Source of the DNA: an uncultured Lachnospiraceae bacterium
GTDB taxonomy: Bacteria; Bacillota; Clostridia; Lachnospirales; Lachnospiraceae
Assembly: GCA_946541955.1 (NCBI GenBank)
Contig: CAMNJZ010000013.1
Location: 1-37,736, forward strand
Reading direction: 5' to 3'
DNA length: 37,736 bases
Each line of letters opens with the position of its first letter. Within the stretch, counting starts at the first letter, position 1. The position numbers and the translations under genes were made by a program. Shown piece after piece: positions 29,343-37,736 of the stretch. The notes beneath the pieces are model-generated. The model saw only the letters and a list, made by a program, of their open reading frames with translations. It ran no database searches and had not been told where the DNA came from.

Positions 29343-29378
29343 CTGCTGGCAGGCCGCAAACTTGCCAGCAGTTTTTTT
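29343..29378 (+). terminator. Intrinsic terminator abutting the leuB Shine-Dalgarno
   Basis: CTGCTGGCA (29343-29351), loop, TGCCAGCAG (29363-29371), T7, immediately followed by GGAGG (29379-29383). Confidence 0.85.
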
Positions 29379-29389
29379 GGAGGTTTACC

Positions 29390-30493
29390 ATGAATTTGAA
29401 TATAGCTGTGATCGCCGGCGACGGCATCGGCCCCGAGATCGTAGCCCAGGCCAGAAAGGTCCTGGACAGGGTCTGCGAAAAATACGGCCATACCATTACC
29501 TATAGGGATATTCTGATGGGCGGAAGCTCCATCGATGCATACGGCGTTCCGCTGACCGATGAGACCATTGAGATCGCCAGAAGCTCCGACGCCGTTCTGA
29601 TGGGCTCCATTGGAGGAGATCCCAAAACGTCTCCCTGGTACAAGCTGGATCCTTCTCTGAGACCGGAGGCCGGTCTTTTGAAGATCCGCAAGGCCCTGGG
29701 CCTCTACGCCAACCTTCGTCCCGCCTATCTGTTCCAGGAGCTGGCAGATTCCTGCCCCCTGGCAGCCAGAGAGGGCGGCAGAAAGTTCGATCTGCTCATC
29801 GTGCGTGAGCTGACCGGCGGCCTTTATTTCGGCGAGCGCTGGACCAAGGAGATCGACGGCGTACGCACCGCCCAGGACACCCTCCGCTATGATGAAAATG
29901 AGATCCGCCGCGTGGTCAGGACCGCCTTTGAGATCGCCGGAAAGCGCAGAGGCAAGGTGACCAGCGTGGACAAGGCCAATGTCCTGGATACCTCCAGACT
30001 CTGGAGAAAGATCGTGGAGGAGGTCTCCGCCGATTATCCGGAGATCACAGTGAACAGCATGTTTGTGGACAACGCCGCCATGCAGCTGGTCCTGAATCCC
30101 GAGCAGTTCGATGTGGTGGTTACCGAGAACATGTTCGGCGACATCCTTTCCGATGAAGCGGCTGAGATCACAGGCTCCATCGGCATGCTGTCCTCCGCTT
30201 CTCTTAATGAGACCAACTTTGGCCTTTATGAGCCCGCCCACGGATCTGCACCCGACATTGCAGGAAAGAACATCGCCAATCCCATCGCGACCATTCTTTC
30301 TGCCGCCATGATGCTTCGTTATACCTTCGGCCTGCAGGAGGAAGCCGACGCCATCGAAAAGGCAGTCAGACAGACCCTTTCCGACGGCTGCAGGACCATT
30401 GATATCATGCCCCGCGGAAAAGACGCAGATCTGACCGGCCTGACCGAGCAGAAATGCGATGAAATGGGCGACAGAGTCTGTGAACGGATCTGA
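29390..30493 (+). CDS. leuB: 3-isopropylmalate dehydrogenase
   Basis: [96 protein letters not shown]. Confidence 0.97.
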
Positions 30494-30548: not shown

Positions 30549-32219
30549 ATGAAGAGTGATTCTGTAAAGAACGGCATTGGCCAGGCCCCTGCAAGAAGTC
30601 TTTTTAACGCCCTCGGCTATACCGAGGAGGAGAGAAAGCGCCCTCTGATCGGTATCGTATGTTCCTATAATGAGATCGTTCCCGGCCATATGAACCTGGA
30701 CAAGATCGCAGAAGCCGTCAAGATCGGCGTCGCCATGGCCGGCGGAACCCCCATCATGTTCCCTGCCATCGCTGTCTGCGACGGAATCGCCATGGGCCAT
30801 ATCGGTATGAAATATTCCCTGGTCACCAGAGACCTGATCGCAGATTCCACGGAATGCATGGCAAAGGCCCACGGCTTTGACGGCCTGGTCATGATCCCCA
30901 ACTGCGACAAGAACGTGCCCGGCCTTCTGATGGCTGCAGCCCGTGTCAACGTGCCCACCATCTTTGTATCCGGCGGCCCCATGCTGGCAGGCCACCTGCA
31001 CGGCAAGAAGAGAAGCCTTTCCTCCATGTTCGAGGCAGTCGGCGCTTATTCCGCCGGCACCATGAGCCTGGAAGAGGTAACAGAGTATGAGGAGAAGGTA
31101 TGCCCTACCTGCGGCTCCTGCTCCGGCATGTATACAGCCAACTCCATGAACTGCCTGACAGAGGCCATCGGCATGGGCCTTCGCGGCAACGGCACCATTC
31201 CCGCCGTCTATTCCGCCAGGATCCGTCTGGCCAAGCATGCAGGCATGCAGATCATGGATCTGGTGGAAAAGAATATCCGTCCCAGAGACATCATGACAAA
31301 GAGAGCCTTTATGAACGCCATGGCCATGGATATGGCCCTGGGCTGCTCCACCAATACCATGCTCCATCTGCCCGCCATTGCCCATGAAGCTGGCGTGGAG
31401 ATCGACATGGAAGTGGCCAACGAAGTCTCCGCCCGTACCCCCAACCTCTGCCATCTGGCCCCTGCAGGCCCCACCTACATGGAGGATCTGGACGAGGCAG
31501 GCGGCATCTATGCCGTTATGAACGAGCTGGACAAGAAGGGCCTTCTGGATCTGGATGTCATGACCTGCACCGGCAAGACCATGCGGGAAAACATCAAGGG
31601 ATGCGTCAATAAGAATCCCGAGGTCATCCGCCCCATCGAGAATCCCTACATGCCCATCGGCGGCATCGCGGTCCTCAAGGGCAACATCGCGCCTGACACC
31701 GGCATCGTAAAGAGATCCGCCGTGGTTCCGGAAATGATGGTCCACGAAGGTCCCGCCAGAGTCTTCGACTGTGAAGAGGACGCCATCAAGGCCATCCTGG
31801 GCGGCAAGATCGTGGCCGGCGACGTGGTGGTCATCCGCTACGAAGGCCCCAAGGGCGGCCCCGGCATGAGAGAGATGCTCAACCCCACCTCCGCCATCGC
31901 AGGCATGGGCCTTGGCTCCTCCGTCGCCCTGATCACCGACGGCCGTTTCTCCGGTGCTTCCCGCGGCGCCTCCATCGGCCATGTTTCTCCCGAAGCAGCA
32001 GTGGGCGGCCCCATTGCCCTGATCGAAGAGGGCGATATCATCTCCATTGATATCCCGGCCAATGCCCTGAACGTCAAGGTCTCCGACGAAGTCCTGGCTG
32101 AGAGAAGAAAGAACTGGAAGCCCAGAACGCCCGAAATCACCGATGGATATCTCTACAGATACGCCAGCCTGGTCACCTCCGGCAACCGCGGCGCCATCCT
32201 GGAGCTCCCCAAGGCCTGA
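30549..32219 (+). CDS. ilvD: Dihydroxy-acid dehydratase
   Basis: [110 protein letters not shown]. Confidence 0.97.
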
Positions 32220-32254: not shown

Positions 32255-33940
32255 TTGAAAATGACAGGTTCCGATATCATCGTGGAATGTCTCCTGGAAC
32301 AGGGCGTTGATACGGTCTTTGGCTATCCCGGCGGAGCCATTCTGAATGTATATGACGCTTTATATAAAAGGTCCGACGAGATCACCCACATCCTGACAAG
32401 CCATGAGCAGGGCGCTTCCCATGCGGCGGACGGATATGCCAGAGCCACCGGCAGGGTGGGCGTCTGCCTGGCCACCTCCGGCCCCGGCGCCACCAACCTG
32501 GTCACCGGCATTGCGACCGCCTACATGGATTCCATCCCCATGGTCGCCATTACCTGCAACGTTACGACTCCCCTTCTGGGCAAGGATTCCTTCCAGGAGG
32601 TGGATATCTTCGGCATCTGCCTGCCCATTACCAAGTACAGCACCATCGTCAAAGATGTCAGCACCCTGGCGGAGACCATCCGCAGGGCCTTCAAGATCGC
32701 CAGAAGCGGCAGGCCCGGTCCTGTCCTGGTGGATATTCTGAAGGATGTCACGGCGGCGGAGTATGACTTTGAAAGGGTCGTACCGGAGCAGAAGAAGATC
32801 AAGCGCAGAAAATATAACAAGTCCGATATCGAGCACGCCATCGATATGATCAAAGAAGCAAAGCGGCCCTTCATCATGGTGGGCGGCGGCGCCATCCTTT
32901 CCGGCGCCAACGGGTCTCTGACCGAGTTCATCCATAAGGTGGATGCGCCGGTCTGCGAGACGCTGATGGCCCAGGGCGCCTTTGACCAGCACGATCCCAG
33001 GTATACGGGCCTGCCCGGCATGCACGGGACCAAGGCCACCAACTTCGGCATCACCGAATGCGATCTTCTGATCGCCCTGGGCGCCAGGTTCTCCGATCGT
33101 GTTTACGGAAACGCCAAGACCTTCGCCAAAAACGCCAGGATCCTGCAGGTCGACATCGATGCTGCCGAGATCAACAAGAACGTCAAGGTGGATTTCTCCA
33201 TTGTGGGAGACCTCAAGGAGGTCCTGGAGAAGATCAACGAGGGACTTCCCAGTCTGGAGCACAGGGAATGGGTGGAGCACATTCAGGAGCTGAAGGAAAA
33301 ATATCCCCTTTCCTATGACAAGTCCGTGCTTACCTGTCCTCTGATCATGGAGACCCTGGACAGACTGACAGAGGGAAAGGCCATCATCACCACAGACGTG
33401 GGCCAGCACCAGATGTGGGCAGCCCAGTATTATACCTATTCGGAGCCCCGCACCTATCTTTCTTCCGGCGGTCTGGGGACCATGGGCTACGGCATCGGGG
33501 CGGCCATCGGCGCCCAGGTGGCCCGTCCGGACAGACAGGTCATCAACATCGGGGGCGACGGATGCTTCCGGATGAACATGAACGAACTGGCCACGGCCAG
33601 CCGTTACAACATCCCCATCATCAACATCATCATTGACAACCACGTTCTGGGAATGGTAAGACAATGGCAGACTCTGTTCTATGGCAAACGCTATTCACAG
33701 ACTGTCCTCAGAGATATGGTGGACTACTGCAAGGTCGCGGAAGGCCTTGGCTGTCTGGCCTTCAGGGTCACGACGGTCCAGGAGCTGGAGCCGGCCCTCA
33801 GGGCCGCGCTGGCCGCAGACCGGCCCGTCGTCATTGACTGTGTGATCGATGATGACGAGACAGTCTATCCCATGGTATCTCCCGGCGCCTCCATCGACCA
33901 GGCCTTCGACGCCTCTGACCTGGCAGCCGGAAGACAATAA
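32255..33940 (+). CDS. ilvB: Acetolactate synthase large subunit (TTG 32255 or ATG 32261)
   Basis: VFGYPGGAILNVYDALY; THILTSHEQGASHAADGYARATGRVGVCLATSGPGATNLVTGIATAY; NIGGDGCFRMNMNELATASRYNIPIINIIIDNHVLGMVRQWQ (TPP motif). Confidence 0.96.
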   Translation: MKMTGSDIIVECLLEQGVDTVFGYPGGAILNVYDALYKRSDEITHILTSHEQGASHAADGYARATGRVGVCLATSGPGATNLVTGIATAYMDSIPMVAITCNVTTPLLGKDSFQEVDIFGICLPITKYSTIVKDVSTLAETIRRAFKIARSGRPGPVLVDILKDVTAAEYDFERVVPEQKKIKRRKYNKSDIEHAIDMIKEAKRPFIMVGGGAILSGANGSLTEFIHKVDAPVCETLMAQGAFDQHDPRYTGLPGMHGTKATNFGITECDLLIALGARFSDRVYGNAKTFAKNARILQVDIDAAEINKNVKVDFSIVGDLKEVLEKINEGLPSLEHREWVEHIQELKEKYPLSYDKSVLTCPLIMETLDRLTEGKAIITTDVGQHQMWAAQYYTYSEPRTYLSSGGLGTMGYGIGAAIGAQVARPDRQVINIGGDGCFRMNMNELATASRYNIPIINIIIDNHVLGMVRQWQTLFYGKRYSQTVLRDMVDYCKVAEGLGCLAFRVTTVQELEPALRAALAADRPVVIDCVIDDDETVYPMVSPGASIDQAFDASDLAAGRQ

Positions 33941-34048: not shown

Positions 34049-35137
34049 ATGGCACGTGTTTACAACTTTTCGGCAGGACCGGCTATGCTTCCCGTGGAAG
34101 TATTACAGGAAGCCGCAGATGAAATGCTTGACTACCAGGGCAGCGGCATGTCTGTCATGGAGATGAGCCACCGCGGCAAGATCTTCGACGGCATCATCAA
34201 GGAAGCGGAAGCAGATCTGCGCGACCTGCTTCAGATCCCCGACAATTACAAGGTCCTTTTCCTGCAGGGCGGAGCCTGGACACAGTTCGCCGCTGTCCCC
34301 ATGAATCTGATGAAGCATGGAAAGGCCGCCTATATCGTGACCGGCCAGTGGGCCAAGAAGGCATGGCAGGAAGCCGGCAAATACGGCGAGGCCGTCAAGG
34401 TCGCTTCTTCCGAAGACAAGACCTTCTCCTATATCCCGGACTGCTCTGATCTGGACATTCCCGAGGATGCCGATTATGTCTATATCTGTGAGAACAACAC
34501 CATTTACGGCACCAAGTTCCATACCCTGCCCAATACCAAGGGCAAGGATCTGGTGGCGGATGTTTCCTCCTGCTTCCTGTCTGAACCCATGGATGTTTCC
34601 AAGTATGCCGTGATCTACGGCGGCGTTCAGAAGAACATCGGCCCCGCAGGCGTCGTGATCGCCATTATCCGTGAGGATCTGATCACAGACGACGTCCTGG
34701 AAGGCACCCCCACCATGCTCAAGTGGAAGACCCAGGCTGACAACGACTCCCTCTTCAATACACCGCCCGCCTATGGCATCTATATCTGCGGCAAGGTCTT
34801 CAAGTGGCTGAAAAAGCAGGGCGGCCTGGCAGCGGTGAAGGAACGCAATGAGAAGAAGGCAGCCCTTCTTTACGATTTCCTGGACCAGAGCAGGCTCTTC
34901 AAGGGAACAGTCCGCAAGGAAGACCGGTCCCTGATGAATGTTCCTTTCATTATCGGCGACAAGGAACTGGAAGCCCTCTTTGTCAAGGAAGCTGAAAAAG
35001 CCGGCCTTGTATCCCTCAAGGGCCACAGAAGCGTCGGCGGCATGCGGGCCAGCATCTACAACGCCATGCCTTATGAAGGCGTCGAGGCCCTGGTTGCCTT
35101 TATGAAGGAATTCGAGGCGGCTCATCCTGCCGAATAA
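34049..35137 (+). CDS. serC: Phosphoserine aminotransferase
   Basis: RVYNFSAGPAMLPVEVLQEAADEMLDYQGSGMSVMEMSHRGKIFDGI; ADVSSCFLSEPMDVSKYAVIYGGVQKNIGPAGVVIAII. Confidence 0.97.
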   Translation: MARVYNFSAGPAMLPVEVLQEAADEMLDYQGSGMSVMEMSHRGKIFDGIIKEAEADLRDLLQIPDNYKVLFLQGGAWTQFAAVPMNLMKHGKAAYIVTGQWAKKAWQEAGKYGEAVKVASSEDKTFSYIPDCSDLDIPEDADYVYICENNTIYGTKFHTLPNTKGKDLVADVSSCFLSEPMDVSKYAVIYGGVQKNIGPAGVVIAIIREDLITDDVLEGTPTMLKWKTQADNDSLFNTPPAYGIYICGKVFKWLKKQGGLAAVKERNEKKAALLYDFLDQSRLFKGTVRKEDRSLMNVPFIIGDKELEALFVKEAEKAGLVSLKGHRSVGGMRASIYNAMPYEGVEALVAFMKEFEAAHPAE

Positions 35138-35160: not shown

Positions 35161-36324
35161 ATGTTTAAATATCATTGCCTCAACAACATTTCAAAGGCCG
35201 GCCTTGGCAGGTTTTCCGCCCTTTATGAGGAAACGGACGATGTAAACGAAGCCCAGGGCATCCTGGTCAGATCTGCCAAAATGCATGACATGGAGTTTTC
35301 CGACAATCTCCTGGCCATCGCAAGGGCAGGCGCCGGCGTCAACAACATTCCGCTGGACAAATGTGCCGAGAAGGGTATTGTGGTCTTCAATACCCCCGGC
35401 GCCAACGCCAACGCCGTCAAGGAGCTGGTCTTTACCGGCATGCTTCTGGCCTCCCGCGACATCGTGGAGGGCGTTGACTGGGTCCGCAGCAACTGGAAGA
35501 ATCCTGACATTGCCAAGGCGGCCGAAAAGGAAAAGAAGCAGTTTGCCGGAACCGAGATCCGCGGCAAAAAGCTGGGCATCATCGGCCTGGGAGCCATCGG
35601 CGTCCGCGTGGCCAATGCGGCCATCGATCTGGGCATGGAGGTCTACGGCTACGATCCCTATGTTTCCGTAGACGCAGCTTGGAACCTGAACCGGTCCGTC
35701 AAGCATGTCAACATCGTAGAGGAGATCTATCAGATCTCTGATATCATTACCATCCATGTGCCCCTTTTGCCCTCCACAAAGGGGATGATCAGCGAACAGG
35801 CCATCGAGCATATGCGCCAGGGCGTGATCATCATCAATATGGCCAGGGACAGCCTCTGCGATGAGAAGGCCATCATCGAGGCCATCGAGAACGGCAGGGT
35901 CAGACGCTATGTGTCTGATTTCCCCAATGCCACCGTAGCCGGCAAGCCCGGCTGCATCACCACGCCCCATCTGGGTGCTTCTACGGCAGAGTCCGAGGAC
36001 AAATGTGCCAGGATGGCGGTGGAAGAGCTGCAGAACTATATCGAAAACGGAAATATCGTGAATTCCGTCAACTATCCCGACTGCAACATGGGAATCTGCC
36101 ATACGCCTGGCCGCGTGGCGATTTTTCACGCCAACAAGACCGGCATGCTGACCCAGTTTACGGCCATTTTCGGCAACACGGATATCAACATCGCGGAGCT
36201 CTTCAACAAGGCCAAAGGGGAAGTCGCCTATACCATGATGGACCTGGATGGGGAAATCCATCCTGAGATCGTGGAGAAGCTGGAGGCCATCGACGGCGTA
36301 TTCCGCGTTCGTGTCATTAAATAG
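35161..36324 (+). CDS. serA: D-3-phosphoglycerate dehydrogenase with C-terminal ACT domain
   Basis: KKLGIIGLGAIGVRVANAAIDLGMEVYGYDPYVS; MARDSLCDEKAIIEAIENGRVRRYVSDFP; C-terminal GMLTQFTAIFGNTDINIAELFNKAKGEVAYTMMDLDGEIHPEIVEKLEAIDGVFRVRVI. Confidence 0.95.
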   Translation: MFKYHCLNNISKAGLGRFSALYEETDDVNEAQGILVRSAKMHDMEFSDNLLAIARAGAGVNNIPLDKCAEKGIVVFNTPGANANAVKELVFTGMLLASRDIVEGVDWVRSNWKNPDIAKAAEKEKKQFAGTEIRGKKLGIIGLGAIGVRVANAAIDLGMEVYGYDPYVSVDAAWNLNRSVKHVNIVEEIYQISDIITIHVPLLPSTKGMISEQAIEHMRQGVIIINMARDSLCDEKAIIEAIENGRVRRYVSDFPNATVAGKPGCITTPHLGASTAESEDKCARMAVEELQNYIENGNIVNSVNYPDCNMGICHTPGRVAIFHANKTGMLTQFTAIFGNTDINIAELFNKAKGEVAYTMMDLDGEIHPEIVEKLEAIDGVFRVRVIK

Positions 36325-36339
36325 AGAGGTTTATACTGT

Positions 36340-37578
36340 ATGGCCATTATCAGACCATTTGAGGCATACCGGCCGGCTGCGGGACTGGAGGACCAGATCG
36401 CAGCCCTCCCCTATGACGTCTACAGCAGGGCGGAAGCCTGTGCCGTGGTCAGGGACCGTCCCCTTTCTTTTCTGAAGATCGACAGGGCCGAGACCCAGTT
36501 TCCGGACGAGGTCGGGACCTATGAGGACTGTGTCTACGAAAAAGCAAGGGATCTGCTGCAGGAGGAAATTGCCTGCGGCCATCTGGTCAAGGACCCGGCG
36601 CCCTCTTTTTATATCTATGCCCAGTCCATGAACGGCAGGACCCAGATCGGTCTGGTAGCCTGCGCCTCCATCGATGATTATGAAAAGGGCGTGATCAAGC
36701 GGCATGAAAATACCCGGGTGGACAAGGAAATCGACAGGATCCGCCACGTGGATACCTGCAACGCCCAGACCGGTCCCATTTTTCTCTGCTACCGGAACCA
36801 TCCTGAGATCGACAGGATCGTAGCCGAGCAGACAAGGGAGCTGCCGGACTGTGATTTCATATCCGACGGCAATGTCCGCAACCGGGTATGGACCATCAGC
36901 GACCCCGCCCTGACAAAGAAGATCAGCGAGGCCTTTGCCCAGATCGATTCCGTCTACATTGCTGACGGCCACCACAGATGCGCTTCGGCGGTCAAGGTGG
37001 GACAAAAGAGAAGGGAGATGCATCCTGACTATACGGGAGAAGAGGAATTCAATTTCTTCCTGTCCGTGCTCTTTCCCCAGGACCAGCTGATGATCATGGA
37101 CTACAACCGGGTGGTGAAGACCCTGGGAGCCTATAGCAGCGAGGACTTCCTGAAGGCCTGCAGCAAGGTGGCCGGGATCGCCCCCTGCGGGAAGGAACAG
37201 GTCCATCCCTCTGCCAAGTCGGAGATCGGCATGTATCTGGACGGCCAGTGGTACAGGATGATCATCCGGTCCCAGTATCGGAAAAAGGATCCGGTGGAGG
37301 GTCTGGACGTATCCATCCTCCAGGACAACATTCTGGGGCCCCTTCTGGGGATCGAGGATCCCAAATCAGATCCCAGGATCGAATTTGTCGGCGGGATCCG
37401 GGGCCTTGGCGAGCTGGAAAGCAGGGTCGACAAAAACGGAGGCGCCGCCTTCGCCATGTATCCCACTTCCATCGGGGAGCTTTTTGACGTGGCCGACGCC
37501 GGCAGGCTCATGCCTCCCAAATCCACCTGGTTCGAGCCCAAGCTCCTGAGCGGGCTTTTCATCCACGCCCTGGGATAG
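36340..37578 (+). CDS. DUF1015 family protein, serCA-associated, function unknown
   Basis: IIRPFEAYRPAAGLEDQIAALPYDVYSRAEACAVVRDRPLSFLKIDRAE; KRHENTRVDKEIDR; VYIADGHHRCASAVKVGQKRREMHP; GEEEFNFFLSVLFPQDQLMIMDYNRVVK. Confidence 0.88.
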   Translation: MAIIRPFEAYRPAAGLEDQIAALPYDVYSRAEACAVVRDRPLSFLKIDRAETQFPDEVGTYEDCVYEKARDLLQEEIACGHLVKDPAPSFYIYAQSMNGRTQIGLVACASIDDYEKGVIKRHENTRVDKEIDRIRHVDTCNAQTGPIFLCYRNHPEIDRIVAEQTRELPDCDFISDGNVRNRVWTISDPALTKKISEAFAQIDSVYIADGHHRCASAVKVGQKRREMHPDYTGEEEFNFFLSVLFPQDQLMIMDYNRVVKTLGAYSSEDFLKACSKVAGIAPCGKEQVHPSAKSEIGMYLDGQWYRMIIRSQYRKKDPVEGLDVSILQDNILGPLLGIEDPKSDPRIEFVGGIRGLGELESRVDKNGGAAFAMYPTSIGELFDVADAGRLMPPKSTWFEPKLLSGLFIHALG

Positions 37579-37684: not shown

Positions 37685-37736
37685 GCTGGAATAGCGCAGT
37701 CGGTAGCGCAACTGATTCGTAATCAGTAGGTCGAGG
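37685..37736 (+). tRNA. tRNA-Thr (anticodon CGT), 3' part outside the window
   Basis: GCTGGAA TA GCGC-AGTCGGTA-GCGC A ACTGA-TTCGTAA-TCAGT AGGTC GAGG...: acceptor 5' strand, D arm, anticodon arm with loop TTCGTAA, variable loop, start of T arm. Confidence 0.92.

Follow-up and report, generated by a model that had tools for sequence, protein, structure and literature searches.

The window, the whole stretch of 37,736 nucleotides analysed here, carries six genes on the forward strand in the order leuB-ilvD-ilvB-serC-serA-DUF1015, which form an apparent operon starting at leuB (Table 1). The genes are separated by 15–108 bp (35–108 bp in the upstream part with leuB, ilvD and ilvB). A sequence-only reading of this DNA had described a serC-serA-DUF1015 operon in which DUF1015 starts 15 bp after serA. 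The trio and the 15-bp spacing are there, but the operon is longer, running from leuB through ilvD and ilvB into the trio. The same reading held that the window has serC and serA and lacks a phosphoserine phosphatase gene, and our scan of the window ORFs agrees, with no gene of this type among them. The serA assignment rests on the domains listed; its best NCBIfam match, TIGR01327, reaches 253 bits and stays under the cut-off of 454.

Table 1 Features of the leu-ilv-ser unit and its flanks in window coordinates
Feature	Position	Strand	Evidence or remark
Terminator-like hairpin	29343–29371		strong, 11 pairs, T7; just 5′ of leuB; consensus scan only
leuB, 3-isopropylmalate dehydrogenase	29390–30493	+	PF00180, 442 bits; apparent operon start
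ilvD, dihydroxy-acid dehydratase	30549–32219	+	PF00920 / PF24877
ilvB, acetolactate synthase large subunit type	32255–33940	+	three TPP enzyme domains
serC, phosphoserine aminotransferase	34049–35137	+	NF003764, 554 bits; TIGR01364, 515 bits (cut-off 443.6)
serA, 3-phosphoglycerate dehydrogenase, 387-aa type	35161–36324	+	PF02826, PF00389, PF22629; C-terminal ACT-like region
DUF1015 gene	36340–37578	+	single ORF, 412 aa; PF06245 (COG4198); putative SerK/SbnI fold
H122-E123 codons	36703–36708	+	invariant; aligned with SerK H29-E30
ADGHHR codons, residues 208–213	36961–36978	+	invariant; aligned with SerK VDGHHR 68–73
MPPKSTWFEPK codons, residues 391–401	37510–37542	+	C-terminal, outside the Pfam domain; aligned with SerK YSPKTT 218–223
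tRNA gene, 5′ part	37685–37736		truncated at window end; Rfam, 38.5 bits

The gap between yajC and leuB is short, and the hairpin in it could either terminate yajC or attenuate the leu-ilv-ser operon. The same consensus scan places a promoter-like site directly 3′ of DUF1015, where the truncated tRNA gene also lies. The genome to which the window belongs is a 2.24-Mb assembly that is 85% complete.

The DUF1015 protein matches PF06245 over its full length (371 bits, profile positions 1–325 of 325, gathering cut-off 25.8). This is the sole domain found, with no DNA-binding domain detected by Pfam, and no NCBIfam profile, the SerB profile TIGR00338 included, matches the protein. A DGHHR-type motif occupies residues 205–217, VYIADGHHRCASA. 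Across 43 close homologues and 17 very diverse ones, ADGHHR and H122-E123 do not vary, and in 17 DUF1015 proteins that are 20–63% identical to the window protein, the motif residues aligned with SerK are among the few invariant positions. Incidentally, a divergent branch (L038:3588-4907 and L047:6297-7649) scores over the Pfam cut-off while having no DGHHR and ending C-terminally in LPRKTFSMGEAEEKR(F/Y)Y; judging from these sequences, its active site has probably been lost or changed and its function is probably different.

Relation of DUF1015 to free serine kinases

An AlphaFold model of the window protein, built from an alignment of 43 genuine homologues, has a pLDDT of 95.5 and a pTM of 0.91. 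When this model was compared with 350,542 PDB chains by Foldseek, nine matches were significant, with nothing among them but free serine kinases and a SerK orthologue from Pyrococcus: Tk-SerK (5x0b, 5x0e, 5x0g, 5x0j and 5x0k), the Pyrococcus orthologue (1vk1) and SbnI (5uje, 5ujd and 6nr6). Their E-values range from 1.3e-6 to 4.2e-5 with a probability of 1.00, and the tenth-ranked match has an E-value of 0.02 and a probability of 0.10. The TM-scores by target length are moderate (0.49–0.55), as expected because DUF1015 carries large insertions.

Profile-profile comparison of DUF1015 with SerK gives P-values of 1.3e-5 and 2.9e-7 in two comparisons. With 69 sequences, hhalign produces one collinear alignment of DUF1015 residues 116–403 with SerK residues 23–234 (P = 3.6e-5), as against P = 0.33 for a reversed SerK control. 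This alignment pairs H122-E123 with H29-E30, ADGHHR 208–213 with VDGHHR 68–73, and PPKSTW 392–397 with SPKTTR 219–224, the columns around and right after HE being weakly aligned. The SerK sequence used was checked against the PDB, where it matched 1vk1 and the 5x0 entries. Sequence searches of the PDB with the protein (phmmer) or its profile (hmmsearch) returned no SerK match and no true homologue, and the homology is visible only by profile-profile and structure comparison. Mutant SerK chains in the PDB, E30A and E30Q, put that glutamate in the KPHE motif; on the strength of these entries, we take E30 to be a catalytic residue.

The sequence-only reading had likened the DGHHR motif to SerK-like folds, and the Foldseek matches and the collinear alignment turn this resemblance into real homology. 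It had also suggested comparing an AlphaFold model with SerK and SbnI, and by the nine matches above the predicted fold is not an unrelated one. Both the predicted structure and the profiles make this bacterial protein kin to the free serine kinases SerK and SbnI.

With the archaeal, ADP-dependent SerK (TK0378), DUF1015 would share the fold and the collinear HE, DGHHR and PKTT/PKST motifs at an identity of ~23% over aligned columns. DUF1015 is longer (412 versus 242 residues), has insertions and an additional region at its N terminus, and HE is separated from DGHHR by 86 residues rather than 39. serA and an aminotransferase gene adjoin serK in Desulfurococcales as they adjoin DUF1015, whereas several DUF1015 members, unlike SerK, belong to anabolic operons or operons led by serine T-boxes. 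SbnI, the serine kinase of staphyloferrin B synthesis, is a significant structural match but differs in belonging to a siderophore cluster without serC-serA linkage. Through SerK, DUF1015 shares the superfamily of the ParB-CTPase fold, although unlike ParB it has neither an HTH nor the ParB dimerization domain. A ParB partition protein was considered and rejected, since DUF1015 has no ParB domain and no ParB chain is among the significant structure matches.

Neighbourhoods, leaders and phosphatases across genomes

Gene neighbourhoods were sampled at 80 DUF1015 loci from GTDB genomes. At least 45 of these 80 unrelated loci carry serA as one of the closest genes, the order serC-serA-DUF1015 being common, and the adjacency is therefore not due to chance. 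In 13 of 14 further loci from independent genomes, the order is aminotransferase-serA-DUF1015. The longer order ilvD-ilvB-serC-serA-DUF1015 is kept in other Lachnospiraceae, and the trio also occurs in other clostridia, Bacteroides finegoldii, a megaplasmid of Enterococcus gilvus and Listeria monocytogenes.

The partners come in three sets: a 387-aa SerA goes with SerC1, a 306-aa SerA with a PhnW/BhcA-like aminotransferase of class V, and a full-length PGDH of 531–558 aa with a class V aminotransferase, the DUF1015 of this last set being only 21–24% identical to the window protein. Trios are thus formed even where SerC and SerA are not orthologous; DUF1015 keeps its place when the partners are exchanged, which is strong evidence for a common pathway. 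The link of DUF1015 to serC-serA is ancient and repeated. Many class II DUF1015 genes and a large share of the close homologues stand alone beside unrelated genes; their neighbours (glgB, mscS, radical-SAM methylthiotransferases and others) were considered for a functional theme, and none emerged. The co-occurrence of DUF1015 with SerC1 is modest (odds ratio 3.3, p = 3e-5), since other aminotransferases are in use in many genomes, and DUF1015 is absent from 23 of 75 SerC1 genomes.

In one operon of the subfamily with 21–24% identity, a gene for a Cof-type HAD phosphatase (L040:5846-6643, minus strand) follows aminotransferase-PGDH-DUF1015. Weak matches to the SerB profile at the corresponding positions of G153 and G205 suggest that this phosphatase is kept in the genus of L040. 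It is a rival candidate for the phosphoserine phosphatase.

Serine T-box operons are turned on at low serine. Among 47 loci scanned with Rfam, a T-box leader lies directly 5′ of the trio in just three, those of Clostridium magnum (L106), Clostridium sp. cel8 (L115) and Lutispora (L127), and none was found in the remaining scanned loci or in the window. The specifier is UCC (Ser) in all three (GAA-UCC-A, GAA-UCC-G and UUA-UCC-A), and UCC is also the predicted Ser specifier in Clostridium acetobutylicum and C. tetani (PMC8002221). The serine UCC T-box marks these three clostridial trios as probably biosynthetic. In L106:3275-3720 and L127:3464-3810, the serine T-box is followed on its 3′ side by a second segment that resembles a T-box antiterminator/terminator (GGGTGGCAMCRCGR...TCGTCCC), still 5′ of the aminotransferase gene; part of the leader may have been duplicated. 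Glycine riboswitches have been reported upstream of COG4198 genes in some Firmicutes (PMC2211319), and our scans of the window and of the 47 loci gave none.

Canonical SerB (TIGR00338) scores over its cut-off in none of 250 genomes of the phylum, as against 7 of 14 controls. SerB being missing throughout the phylum sample with or without DUF1015, the lack of it does not set DUF1015 genomes apart. Among 18 named carriers of the operon or of DUF1015, SerB is likewise absent (0/18 over cut-off) and ThrH is present in four. These carriers include a whole L. monocytogenes chromosome. Two records labelled as Listeria plasmids, NZ_CP030101.1 (2.9 Mb) and NZ_LR134400.1 (594 kb), look chromosomal, and the former was treated here as a chromosome. 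Three control genomes have DUF1015, two of them together with canonical SerB (Bacteroides ihuae and Methanosarcina acetivorans) and one without it (Thermotoga maritima).

A ThrH gene is present in the window's own genome, unlinked to the operon (G000 contig C102:4434-5030, minus strand; the same as locus L133:2932-3591), with 292 bits for NF010109 (cut-off 133) and 232 bits for TIGR02137 (cut-off 223). NF010109 is named bifunctional phosphoserine phosphatase/homoserine phosphotransferase. ThrH is a known family of phosphoserine phosphatases of the HAD type; the gene here, which does not lie beside serC-serA, probably supplies or shares this step in the window's genome. It might also serve threonine synthesis there, the homoserine kinase ThrB having only a weak match in this 85% complete assembly (C33:8117-8752, 58 bits, cut-off 168).

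In the phylum sample, ThrH is found in 5 of the 250 genomes, namely four of the same family and one other of the same class. Among 60 Lachnospiraceae, ThrH occurs in 27 and DUF1015 in 48; 25 have both, 2 ThrH only, 23 DUF1015 only and 10 neither (Fisher p = 0.049), so the two are not mutually exclusive. Neither ThrH nor SerB over cut-off is found in 119 of the 123 DUF1015 genomes of the phylum sample, by a census of these two families.

These counts change what the sequence-only reading had drawn from a lack of serB. Its statement is right about the operon and about canonical SerB; on another contig, however, a ThrH-type phosphatase is encoded, so that the missing SerB leaves no gap to fill in this organism. 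The phylogenetic profile it had proposed of DUF1015 versus serB yields the uniform absence of SerB across the phylum sample on one side, and coexistence in Bacteroides and Methanosarcina on the other. An obligate one-for-one replacement of SerB by DUF1015 is ruled out generally by coexistence with SerB and ThrH, and the case for a missing phosphatase therefore rests on the genomes without SerB or ThrH.

Possible roles at the serine/phosphoserine node

To our knowledge, the characterised relatives with the SerK fold and motif bind free serine or phosphoserine and nucleotide. Because of this, and because the catalytic motifs are kept and the partner enzymes make or use phosphoserine, DUF1015 is placed at the serine/phosphoserine node. 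Judging from sequence and model, serine or phosphoserine is its probable substrate, and it would be the third enzyme of a 3-phosphoglycerate–serine module made up of the aminotransferase, SerA and DUF1015.

As the leading reading, we propose that in the Firmicutes operons DUF1015 would run biosynthetically, from O-phosphoserine to serine. The DGHHR loop would hold the phosphate group of phosphoserine, and the proton on the seryl oxygen would be handled by Glu123, which is invariant. Running the kinase backwards onto ADP or AMP is thermodynamically unfavourable, transfer to a nucleotide being strongly uphill; therefore, a serine-forming DUF1015 would have to hydrolyse phosphoserine, i.e. perform SerK chemistry with water as the acceptor. 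In the window's organism it would act beside ThrH rather than as the sole phosphatase. SerB would hold the same pathway position with an unrelated (HAD) fold and unrelated motifs. Binding of phosphoserine, catalysis and the direction towards serine are what we infer. The serine T-boxes, the leu/ilv setting in the window and the missing third step count for the synthetic direction. Against it count the coexistence with SerB and ThrH, the SerC1 genomes that lack DUF1015, the small share of loci with T-boxes, the Cof-type HAD phosphatase in one subfamily operon and the YsaA-like and PspA-like phosphatases that might do the step instead; moreover, we know of no characterised enzyme with the fold and motif of DUF1015 that is not a kinase. 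We put the probability of a SerK-fold enzyme converting phosphoserine to serine at about 0.45. That the family as a whole turned the free-serine-kinase fold to this use, and so provides the missing third step in many SerB-less Firmicutes, we suggest more tentatively.

The main rival is a true free serine kinase that makes phosphoserine from serine and ADP or ATP, with SerC and SerA reversed, so that the trio would channel serine, or glycine by way of GlyA, into 3-phosphoglycerate; such a route has been proposed for SerK in Thermococcales. Free serine kinases are the only match for the fold and catalytic motifs, and serK itself adjoins dehydrogenase and aminotransferase genes in Desulfurococcales (PMC5120207). 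In T. kodakarensis, SerK occurs together with a SerB homologue (PMC5120207), which fits the occurrence of DUF1015 with SerB or ThrH. Even the reported COG4198 glycine riboswitch could fit glycine/serine assimilation, although its absence from all 47 scanned loci tells against this. A kinase is, however, hard to reconcile with T-boxes that respond to low serine and with the place of the window gene in a leu/ilv/ser biosynthetic operon, and it would create a futile cycle where ThrH is present. On balance, we consider it unlikely but a serious contender.

Coexistence with true phosphatases could also mean that DUF1015 is a non-catalytic or bifunctional regulator, which binds serine or phosphoserine together with nucleotide and tunes SerA/SerC or gene expression in the manner of SbnI or the ParB-fold switches. 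Ligand-gated switches do occur in the ParB-CTPase fold, and a DUF1015-type protein was in a 50-protein nucleotide-binding test set and is absent from the binders of the main text (PMC12704722). Nonetheless, the residues aligned with the catalytic and phosphate sites of SerK are invariant down to ~20% identity, beyond a regulator's needs, and Pfam shows no domain with which to bind DNA, making this reading improbable. Lastly, the many solitary members beside glgB, mscS and the like would be explained if the serine-gene link were historical and the substrate another small phosphorylated compound. We regard this as very improbable, given the repeated pairing with non-orthologous SerC and SerA and the lack of any other recurrent, functionally related partner at the loci sampled.

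Published background and meaning

A literature search for the function of DUF1015 found no published assignment. In a 2025 survey, a ‘DU1015’ protein figures among the proteins of the ParB-CTPase fold picked for testing, and the main text gives no result for it (PMC12704722). The fold link is thus partly published and the function is not, and the SerK paper did not find clear bacterial homologues. New here are the specific kinship to free serine kinases predicted by model and profiles, the conservation of the catalytic motifs, and the tie to the serC-serA module and to serine T-boxes.

In 450 gut Firmicutes genomes, SerA and SerC are present and no known SerB is (PMC9026213), and Clostridium perfringens grows without serine while its SerB candidates are low-confidence only (PMC7311316). 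For the last step of serine synthesis, which seems absent from many Firmicutes, DUF1015 is a good candidate: a putative serine-kinase-like active site, encoded in a serine operon, is a candidate for the missing phosphatase step in gut Firmicutes. Should DUF1015 prove to be a kinase, phosphorylation of free serine would be widespread among bacteria, and the textbook serC-serA operon might operate in the opposite direction.
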